Both the position numbers and the translations under genes were made by a program. A DNA stretch of 64,000 nucleotides from Pelecanus crispus (Eukaryota; Chordata; Aves; Pelecaniformes; Pelecanidae): NCBI RefSeq assembly GCF_030463565.1, contig NC_134656.1, positions 129,001-193,000 on the forward strand, written 5' to 3'. Below, piece after piece: positions 7,463 to 15,596 of this stretch. Each line of letters starts with the position of its first letter. The first letter of the stretch is position 1. The notes under the pieces were generated by a model. It worked only from the letters and a program-made list of their open reading frames with translations, was not told where the DNA came from and made no database searches.

Positions 7463-10400
7463 GTCTGAGCATCAAAAAATGCGATTTCAACATCACAATG
7501 AACAACCACAACCACCACACAGAAGAAATCAGCACTGAAAGGCTTATGGTGAGGCGAGGGCAGCCATTCACTATTACTGTGAGCTTCTCAGCTCCAATAA
7601 ACAGCTACCTGCAGCAGCTGAAGAGGACTTTCCTCATCGTACAGACAGGTAACATCATTATCATACCTATCAGAGCTCTGGTCCTCCACCCACCTGAAGA
7701 ACAGAGCTGGTGGCAAATGCCATCTTCAGAGCTGGTCAGAGGTGCCCGCATTTAGAAGTGAGGCCAGTGAACTGTTTATCTAAGGCAAAGTAGAGTCTCC
7801 TGCTGCTGGGACTACAGGGTCAAAACTAGATCTCTTTCCAGAAGAGACACTGCAGCACAATAACCAATGCAGGTTCACTACTCTATGATTTGAAAGTACT
7901 CATGGGATCCCTCCTCTCTTCTGGCTTTTGGTTTAGGAGTGTTCAAACTTAACTAGCCCCTTACAGATGTTTCCTGTTACAGAGTGTTTTCTAGTGAGAC
8001 CCCTGAGAAGGGCAGCAGCATTCAGCCCCAGCTTGTTTTACCATAATCTGAGCATGTGGCTGTGACTTTTGTTACAAGACACTGAATCCCAGAAGCAGCA
8101 GGTCTGCACCATTCTGGCTGTTCCTGGTTTCTACAAATCTATGAAATACACATCCCACTTTCAAATATGGAGGCCTGAGTGCAGTACTAACCTTAGGAAG
8201 ATTCACCAGGCATTAAGCTGCTAAAGGGTTAAGACTCTCTCACAAGAAAGGAGAGCTATGGCTCCAGATATAGACAAAGTCCCTACAATCTGCATGGGGT
8301 GAGGATGCATGGCCGGAATAGACACAACCAAATCTCTTTGGCTGCAGGATCACATCCTTCCAAAGCAGATGGAACCCAGACTGAATTTCCCATCTCCAGC
8401 CTGGGAGACCAGAAGCAGTGGAGCGCAGCACTGGAAGAACAGGACCCATGCTTCTGGACCATCTCTGTGAACACGCCTGCCAATGCTGCCATTGGCCAGT
8501 ATGATCTGCTTTTACATGCCTCCAAGTCTTACTGTCTCCTGGGCAAATTCACCCTTCTCTTTAATCCCTGGTGCCAAGGTACGTGGTCAGAAACAGAAAC
8601 GCAGGCTGGGATCAGCCACTTCACAAAAACAGCTTTTGAGCTCTGGCACTCTGCCTCCATGGAGGTTGAGGCTGACTCTTCTAGTGCTCCCCGCCACTCC
8701 TGCCCTGCTCCTCACAGCACCTTAGCAAGGAGGTAAGGGCTAATAAAAGCTCAAAGCTGCCTGCCTCAGCACTTCTGCCCTATTCCTGGAGTACTCCACT
8801 GCCAGAGCCCTGTCCTCCTGGTAAGGGAAAAGCGTTTGATAAAGTGTTTCCTACAATAAAGATTTTAACACGAGTCAGGATTATAATTGGTCTGATTAAG
8901 GCGACTGTATCTTTCTTAGGAATAGAGAAGTCAACAGCCAGGAGAGCAGAAGTGCTAGCTAGTGCAATAGCCTAGGTCTGGAGAAACTTTTTGAACAAGG
9001 AAACGGAGATGACAATGAAAATTCTTCTTTCCTGTCTGATTCAGAATCTGTGGTATTTTTCCAGGACAGAATGCCAGGGACTGCCAATATCCCTGGAGTG
9101 CAGTGGAGTCTGCCAATGTAAGAGAGACGCAAATGCATCTGAGACCAGGAACACTTTCTTCCTGACGCTTTTTTCCTCTAATCTAGATGATGAGGTGTTC
9201 TTGGCTAATGAGGCACAGCGGCAGGAGTACATTTTAAACCCAGAGGGTGTCATCTACTGAGGGTCTGAAAATGCAGTCCTATCACAACCCTGGGACTTCA
9301 GTCAGGTAAGCGAGAGGTCCGATATGTCTGCGCTCTCTTACGGCCACCAGCAGAGGAAGGGTGCGTATCGCCTGTGTATACAGGATACTATCCACTTCCA
9401 TACTGTGGTTTTGATGAAAGAACTTGCTCTGTGCTTTCTGCACTCACTGTCTTTGTCTAAGACTGTACAGGAGAAGAGGGACCTGTGCACAAAGTCCCAT
9501 AACCCAGTACATATAATTTTAGCTACCTTCTCAGGCTGTCCTCTATGAAGAAAAGCACTGATCTATATCTGGGCTTTGTGTGCCTTCCTTTCATCAACAG
9601 ATATAAAAGCATTTAACAGAGCTTAGTAATATTGTCTCTGTTTTACAGGTAAGTGGGGACAAGTAGATCTTCCAATTTGCCCAAGGCCATCTGAGACAGA
9701 CAGTGATTAGAACAGGACGTTATTCCACTTTAGTTCCACCAGATCACAAAAGTATCTCTGTGCCAACCTAGAGAGTGCTAGAGAAAAGCATCAATTTCCC
9801 TCCATCAGGGGATGCAGTATCATGCTAATGCATCTCCCACCTTGCTTCAATAAAGCTGTAGGTCTGCCTTTAGTATGTTGTGCTCCCCCTCCAAATCTCT
9901 GCCCAGAGCTCTCCTCCACAGCCCGCTTACATAAGACTATCAGCAGAAAGGGAGAAATAATCTGCACAGTTACAAACCCGTGCAGGGACTCCAGAGAACA
10001 AACGTTCAGGCCAAATTTCCCAAAACGATGTGTTCTTGTTTCAGTTTGAGGATGATATTGTTGACATCTGCTTCACACTGCTGGATGTAGGTGAACACCG
10101 TCAACGAGACAGGGATCACACCCAGCGCAAGAACCCTATTTACATCTGCCGCACAGTTGCTGCCACGGTAAGGAGAGCAGACAGCAGCCCTGACCCTAGC
10201 AGAGAAGACCCAAATGCAGAGCAAAGGCTAGCATCTTCTCAATCCCAGTTTATGGCAATCCACTGACCAAAGAGGAAGCCTGCCCAGGGCTGTTCCAAAC
10301 ACCACCTCCTGCCCATCTCCAGCCCTTCCAGGTATTTCTGCAGCAGACAAGTAGTGCTGCAGAGTTCCTTCACAGTAATGGTACACGTACTGAATAAATC

Positions 10401-13400: not shown

Positions 13401-15596
13401 TTATAATGGTGTGCCCATTACCCAGCTTTGGAAGGAGGAGTTTCATTTTATCCTCAAAAGCAATGAAGGTAAGGACTCTACTGGGTGCATGGCTAGAAAA
13501 GTATGTCTAGTCCTCTCACTTCAGGAAAAATGCACTTAGCCATAAGTCTACAAAAGGTTGGCTGAATAGTTGATTGTAGGCGATTGAAATAAAACACTTT
13601 GGCAACATCACCTCAGAGGTTTTGAACCTGCAAATCCAGTTGGGATCACTTAAGCTTTTAAATGCTGCAGCTTTTAGTGCAATGTTGGGCACTAAACACT
13701 CCTAGGTGCCATGCAGGCTAAGACCAGACTGTACTTATCGTCTGCATTGTCATCTGTATTTCACCACTCTCTATTCCAGCTAAAAATCTGCAGGTCTTCG
13801 TGCCTTACTCGCAGTACGGAAGAGAGTTGGGAGAGAACCATCTGCTTAGGCTGACTGCCATGCTGAGAGATGAGGACTCCTGCTACATATACTTTGCACA
13901 GGAAGAGATCAGCATTTGTGATTCCCCTCTCACTATTGAGGTTAGATCAGTCTATTATTCTGTTACTGCAGTAGTGAGAAAACAGCTTTCATAGTCATAA
14001 GCAGCAAAAAAAATCTGCTGGGTTGAGTGGCTCTCCTTATGCTGTCTTCTTTCAAGGCACTGAGACATCAGTTTGGAAAGGTGAGCTGTGCCGCACTGTT
14101 GTATACAGTACTCCCACTTCTACCTTGTCTATGTGTGAGCATAAGGAAATCCCATTGACTCCTAACTCACTCACCAGTCTGGAAATCAGAGGCTGCAGAA
14201 GGAAACTACAGCAGAATACTGTAGTTGAGAAGAGAGTAAGCTGGACTTTGCCTCTTCTGGCAACCGGCAGCTCAGGCCGAGACCTCTGGCACCAAAGAAA
14301 TCATTTATCGCCCTTTAATCGTAGAAGAATCTCTTTCCTTCTTTCAGTTTCAGCTCATTTCCTTCTTTCAACAGTTTCCAGAAAATATGGTACAGTATCA
14401 GCCAAGCACAGCAAAGATCAGCCTCCGGAACCCTCTCACCGAACCCTTGGAGAAGTGTGTGATAGTGGTTGCAGGGAGAGGGCTCATTTACAGACAAAGG
14501 AAGTACAGGTAAGTGCAAACTGATTGATCTAAGAACGGTATATGGAAGAAGAGACACAATACAAGCTAGAGAAACCCTTGCATAGGAAAGGCTGTCCCCA
14601 AAAATAAGTGGACAACAACGTGGCAGGAAGAGACTGCTACAGCATGAAAGCCCCAGGCATCCCATCCTTTATTTACAGATAATACAGAACATTTTCACAC
14701 TGAAAAGGAGAAAAGCCAGATAACAGAACTTTCAACAGATGTGTAATACGTAAGTTAAAGCCAGTATGACATTTGTGAAAGCTTCAACCCCAAAGGCCTA
14801 GACAGCAGAAGAAAAGCCCCCTGCCAACAAAAAGGGTAACAAGAGAAGTACCACAAAACTTAGGCAGAAATACACATTAAGTAAGACAACAGTTATAGGT
14901 CACTGAAATGAGCTAGAAATTTAGAAATTATTTGCTGTTGAGAAACCAACTGCTTTTTAGCTAGCCACCTGAACATCCGTAAGTGGGGTAAAACTATACT
15001 GTTTGTGACATCTCTTTCCACCCATTACCCCACTGTGAGCAATAAACACAGTCCCTGGGTACAGTTTTAACAGTGTCTTCCCCTTCCCTGCTGAAGAACC
15101 AGGCAAACCTGACTTAGCCAAGTGTCATCTAAAAAGGCATGCTCTCCTTCACATGAAAAAAAAACCCCACATTTCTCTCAAGAAGCTGCATTAGGACAAA
15201 GTAACCTTAGATGCCTCCATGGGGAGTTCAACCCTCCTGTCTATCTCCCTCCCAAACTACTGCCAGATCACAATTCCATTGTGGTAGTTTAGATAACTGC
15301 TAGTCGCCTCCTATTTCCATTTTTTTTTTTTTTTTCTTTCCTTTCTTTGGCACCACACTCCTGTCTAGCAAATGCATCTCCTGGGCCCTGGGAACTAGAA
15401 ATACAAAGAGGTGCACTTCCTGTATAATCCCTTCTCGCCTTTCAGGTTGGGCTCTGTGCAACCTAAAAGCACTCAAGAGCTGCCAATCTCATTCACCCCC
15501 ACCCAAGCAGGACCCAGAAGACTCACTGCACATCTCACCTGCCTTCAACTCCAGAACCTGAAGAGCTACAAAACTATCAACATTGCAGCTGCCTGA
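7463..15596 (+). pseudogene. EPB42: EPB42 (erythrocyte membrane protein 4.2), interrupted by two nonsense codons
   Basis: Protein 4.2 is a transglutaminase-fold protein of the red-cell membrane skeleton that binds band 3 and ankyrin. Exons 2-13 read 7463-7648, 8348-8578, 9187-9305, 10045-10167, 10566-10743, 11127-11265, 11647-11750, 12077-12319, 13145-13468, 13780-13940, 14375-14508 and 15446-15596. All phases match, giving about 697 codons (human 691). Diagnostic stretches are [13 protein letters not shown] [53 protein letters not shown] and LHYNGV; these fit EPB42 better than other transglutaminases. Convergence with CCNDBP1 matches human. Oddities: TGA at 9258-9260 in exon 4, TAG at 10704-10706 in exon 6, and a GC donor after exon 8 (11751). 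The catalytic triad codons are Cys 10713, His 11654 and Asp 11723, whereas human protein 4.2 has Ala at the Cys position. Exon 1 was not found. Two sequencing errors would be the alternative to a pseudogene. Confidence 0.85.

Follow-up and report, generated by a model that had tools for sequence, protein, structure and literature searches.

Protein 4.2, the product of EPB42, belongs to the transglutaminase family and is found at the red-cell membrane. Its binding partners in mammals are band 3 and the ankyrin complex, and in human its deficiency is a form of hereditary spherocytosis. The EPB42 locus described here lies in the window, which is the whole 64-kb stretch of DNA that was analysed, and it raises the question of whether this bird still makes the protein and, if it does not, how recently the gene was lost. 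A new gene model was built from the window sequence, with exons 2–13 spanning 7463–15596 on the plus strand, and its features are the following.

5508..5517, + strand: candidate end of EPB42 coding exon 1, AGG GGC CAA G followed by the donor gtaagc (sole match in 1–7462 to codon-GGN-CAR-G/GT, the slash marking the splice site)
7463..7648, + strand: exon 2 (AG acceptor, GT donor, frame; tblastn)
8348..8578, + strand: exon 3 (splice sites, frame; tblastn)
9187..9305, + strand: exon 4, 119 bp, with TGA inside (splice sites, frame; hoatzin EPB42 alignment)
9258..9260, + strand: TGA stop at codon 167, Trp in the hamerkop (sequence read, gene model, homologue alignment)
10045..10167, + strand: exon 5 (splice sites, frame; tblastn)
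10566..10743, + strand: exon 6, 178 bp, with TAG inside and the codon of Cys273 (splice sites, frame; tblastn; hoatzin alignment)
10704..10706, + strand: TAG stop at codon 270, Tyr in the hamerkop (sequence read, gene model, homologue alignment)
11127..11265, + strand: exon 7 (splice sites, frame; tblastn)
11647..11750, + strand: exon 8, with a GC donor, gcaaga (splice sites, frame)
12077..12319, + strand: exon 9 (splice sites, frame; tblastn)
13145..13468, + strand: exon 10 (splice sites, frame; tblastn)
13780..13940, + strand: exon 11 (splice sites, frame; tblastn)
14375..14508, + strand: exon 12 (splice sites, frame; tblastn)
15446..15596, + strand: exon 13, with the normal stop TGA at 15594–15596 (splice sites, frame)

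All 12 acceptors are AG, and the donors of exons 2–12 are GT in ten of eleven cases and GC in the remaining one (intron 8). Together, the end of exon 1 and exons 2–13 make 701 codons including the final stop, with two internal stops and no frameshift found in this model, and an ATTAAA-type polyadenylation signal follows exon 13 at 15694. The sequence-only reading had described exons 2–13 as keeping phase, acceptors and frame to the normal stop, with a TGA at 9258–9260 and a TAG at 10704–10706, and all of this holds. Its further description of an otherwise perfect gene was too strong, since the start codon is lost (AGG at 5508–5510) and the donor of intron 8 is GC. This donor (11751–11752, AAG/gcaaga) may belong to an old GC-AG intron or may be a further change.

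The homologues leave little room for another identity. Birds account for 117 of the 120 rows listed, mostly under the name EPB42 or protein 4.2, and in a PDB comparison the read-through protein scored 661 bits with human protein 4.2 vs 478 with TGM2; by these scores it is EPB42 and not another transglutaminase. It is 92% identical to EPB42 of the hamerkop (Scopus umbretta, P0002), a member of Pelecaniformes, and a multi-exon match of 700 codons at this level is, on alignment, one for which chance is excluded. In a tree of 30 hand-chosen proteins, window included, the two were sisters with support of 100/99, and they have in common Arg271, which is present in 4 of the 117 bird rows. By this grouping the bird is pelecaniform-like, and it may be a pelican. 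The hamerkop gene is in these respects an orthologue of the one in the window; it differs in its annotated product, which has 697 residues and no interruption (the record is marked partial and does not include the start), with Trp167 and Tyr270 where the window has stops. When the C-terminal 390 residues served as query, no near-identical record appeared among the 120 of 181 proteins listed, the best identity being 92%. The protein databases contain predicted proteins, and clustering at 90% identity conceals member species; broken genes are under-represented in them because premature stops cannot appear in predicted proteins. A second EPB42 copy within the 64-kb window was considered and rejected, one copy being found there. 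With three disabling lesions in that copy, the gene is a candidate unitary pseudogene.

On the minus strand EPB42 is adjoined by ZNFX1, identified by Pfam and homologues, and further neighbours, read by eye from open frames, are presumably DDX27 and an SNRPB-like gene. Among 60 ZNFX1 records compared, the nearest to the window was that of the shoebill, at a distance of 4.1% (54/1308 residues), followed by Phaethon at 6.1%; we take the difference from the shoebill to be too large for one and the same species. The large ZNFX1 exon contains a 75-base tandem repeat of 4.6 copies (35673–36015), which codes for a repeated stretch of 25 residues. In addition, the window holds a young inverted repeat pair (3734–4220 and 39601–40087; 97.7% identity over 487 bases), whose frames resemble what we take to be the end of a CR1-type LINE, and it gave no Rfam matches at gathering score.

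The two internal stops fall at positions where relatives mostly carry Trp and Tyr. At residue 167, the 120 listed homologues have Trp in 74 cases, Gln in 24, Ser in 9, Arg in 6, Gly in 5 and Leu in 1, with one gap; at residue 270 they have Tyr in 105, Ser in 6, His in 4, and Asn, Phe and Gln in 1 each, with two gaps. Both Trp167 and Tyr270 are present in the hamerkop, a booby (Sula), the hoatzin, a condor (Gymnogyps) and the maguari stork, and residue 167 is Ser in Anhinga and chicken. A C-to-T origin had been proposed for both stops (CGA to TGA and CAG to TAG); the homologues, the hamerkop as nearest among them, give it no support, and CGA and CAG were rejected as source codons. As the relatives carry Trp167 and Tyr270, the alignment is most simply read as replacement of Trp by the first stop and of Tyr by the second. 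The TAG at codon 270, in exon 6, is adjoined by Val268Phe and Arg269His, both specific to the window.

The third lesion, beyond the two stops noticed earlier, is AGG in place of the start codon. The exon 1 candidate at 5508–5517 has the correct phase and reads AGG-Gly-Gln vs the Met-Gly-Gln of relatives, there is no in-frame ATG between 5508 and the upstream stop at 5478, and an alternative exon 1 of the family type was rejected after none turned up in the 7462 bases that precede exon 2. At alignment position 1 the 120 listed homologues show Met in 44, a gap in 61 and another letter in 15, many of these records being marked partial and beginning inside the gene. Thus, of the N-terminal Met-Gly-Gln used to recognize orthologues, the window has retained Gly-Gln and lost the start; as read from its codons, this EPB42 is a broken orthologue rather than a working one. 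In human protein 4.2 the glycine after Met is myristoylated, and loss of the start would also remove this anchor.

The explanation that we favour, and consider quite probable, is that the window holds the EPB42 orthologue, as its only copy there, and that this gene was recently inactivated in this pelecaniform-like bird. Translation halted at codon 167 or 270 would leave any product short of a complete core domain, the allele would yield no protein 4.2, and its mRNA would probably be degraded. In the lineage the null state would be common or fixed, and its red cells would assemble their band 3-ankyrin complex without protein 4.2.

The age of the loss was approached through amino-acid change. 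The branch of the window measured 0.042 vs 0.054 for the hamerkop, and with 11 outgroup birds 15 missense changes were assigned to the window, 17 to the hamerkop and 22 were ambiguous (p 0.86). Conserved columns were taken from the bird proteins P0001–P0097 without P0040 (96 proteins, of which 9 with at least 25 gaps were dropped; rows after P0097 lay outside the set). In columns conserved to at least 95%, the window had 4 departures vs a mean of 5.9 and a median of 5 in the 87 birds, and it carried 3 residues found in none of these birds, which themselves averaged 8.8. The mean BLOSUM62 score of these three residues was −1.0, with lower values in 15 of the 87 birds, and they are too few to weigh. 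The ratio of EPB42 to ZNFX1 distance, calculated for the 20 species common to both gene sets after alignment of 60 of the 120 listed ZNFX1 records, was 1.267 in the window, the third highest of 21, the others ranging from 0.954 to 1.563. Since the branch, missense, conserved-column and unique-residue counts and the ZNFX1 ratio are not excessive, there is no sign of long decay, and relaxed constraint was not found, missense change being without excess. By these counts, the absence of excess fits a recent loss, yet it is not positive evidence of decay. For an expectation of 17 changes and an assumed omega, an unconstrained share of one fifth of the branch had P 0.03 (omega 0.2), and a share of one half had P 0.09 (omega 0.5). 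The sequence-only reading of a freshly lost gene is best supported as regards recent loss, through the third null lesion and missense change without excess; the origin that it proposed for the stops is not supported by relatives, and the gene is not otherwise perfect.

The same counts contain a tension. Null changes make up about 5.8% of the amino-acid-changing mutations of this EPB42 sequence, so that three nulls would on average be accompanied by about 49 missense changes. The chance of at least three nulls is 0.009 with 5 post-loss missense changes and 0.08 with all 15. Either the lesions arose early by luck or a rival explanation holds, and because there are too few missense changes per null lesion, some weight is left to two rivals.

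The stronger of them, which we regard as unlikely but deserving of some weight, is that the null allele is real and still segregating, with working copies remaining in the species and the sequenced haplotype being unrepresentative. The evidence is indeed a single haplotype, and the scant missense change is what a very young loss predicts; nevertheless, three separate nulls on one haplotype would be more than is usual for a young allele. A distinctly less probable explanation is that the gene works and that its lesions are artefacts of the consensus or the assembly, as might be suggested by the missense-to-nonsense ratio, which is odd for neutral decay, and by the clustering of three changes at codons 268–270. 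Against this, the window has no ambiguous bases (no N) and its EPB42 no frameshift, and substitution errors striking the start codon and two more codons would be improbable. In addition, all 2005 residues of shoebill ZNFX1 could be aligned to the same window, in 13 pieces. One stop occurs in each of two pieces, and both stops fall in ends that are covered by the adjoining piece, as run-on into introns predicts. Poor assembly is disfavoured because ZNFX1 is full-length and its only stops lie in overlapping ends. Hoatzin EPB42, compared with the window in the same way, covered 695 of 698 residues, with both stops inside exons 4 and 6.

Very improbable, finally, is that EPB42 still works through a bypass, by a joint skip of exons 4–6, a different first exon or editing of the stop codons in the RNA. 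It had been argued that skipping exon 4 (119 bp) or exon 6 (178 bp) would shift the frame, and this is correct for a single skip; a joint skip of exons 4–6 removes 420 bp and stays in frame, shorter isoforms occur among the bird EPB42 records, and A-to-I editing of UGA would give Trp, as in the hamerkop. Nevertheless, the listed short isoforms have lengths that would match loss of exon 3 or exon 9 and not of exons 4–6, the joint skip drops 140 residues including Cys273, an edited UAG would give Trp and not Tyr, the start codon would be beyond repair by editing, and the upstream search left no other first exon of the family type. Bypass would require the joint skip plus a new start, and on exon lengths and these arguments both exon skipping and editing were judged unlikely.

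A damaged EPB42 was also found in another waterbird, the maguari stork (Ciconia maguari), whose model P0040 is labelled LOW QUALITY. Relative to the hoatzin, single residues are missing at five places and inserted at one, and there are a 5-residue deletion and a 19-residue insertion, besides a difference in the length of a serine run that was taken as ordinary. Past its first residue, the 19-residue insertion matches intron 7 of the window EPB42, read in frame, at 18 of 18 residues. The stork has Lys where this intron has TAA, and therefore its exon 7 donor has presumably changed. The stork differs from the window in having Met1, Trp167 and Tyr270 intact and thus none of the three lesions, so its defects are independent of them. 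This one model from one assembly, in which one-residue gaps can be sequencing errors, suggests a probable second and independent loss of EPB42. That the gene was lost at least twice, independently and recently, in the core waterbirds (this bird and the maguari stork) is a proposal that we make tentatively, as a possibility short of an expectation. If both losses are true, the band 3-ankyrin complex in the nucleated red cells of these birds would have become independent of protein 4.2.

The read-through protein of the window keeps the transglutaminase triad Cys273, His332 and Asp355. Among homologues P0001–P0114, Cys is present in 110 of 114, and His and Asp in 113 of 114 each, in contrast to human protein 4.2, which has Ala, Gln and His at these positions. 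Judged by these residues, protein 4.2 of birds may be enzymatically active, as already reported for some sauropsids (PMC11152450). As the listed birds mostly retain the triad, loss of EPB42 might abolish an enzyme in addition to a scaffold.

Search results for the literature on avian EPB42, its loss and its pseudogenes contained no report that a bird had lost the gene. The accessible part of PMC11152450 describes other losses in the family, of TGM9 in snakes and worm lizards and of TGM3, 5, 6 and 7 in cetaceans, which resemble the window EPB42 as lineage-specific decay; they differ in affecting skin-appendage genes, and EPB42 loss in a bird is not reported in that part. A disease study in chicken (PMC8944783) reports EPB42 as changing together with SLC4A1, ANK1 and SPTB. 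Recent inactivation of EPB42 is thus a known kind of event, for which these partial sources yielded no avian case. Human deficiency likewise involves a null EPB42, but there the null allele causes disease and the species as a whole retains the gene, whereas here the null is possibly the normal state of the bird.

Protein 4.2 is kept by many other birds and was apparently lost recently here. Birds without protein 4.2 would be natural knock-outs showing its role in nucleated red cells, and near relatives with vs without the protein would permit a direct test.
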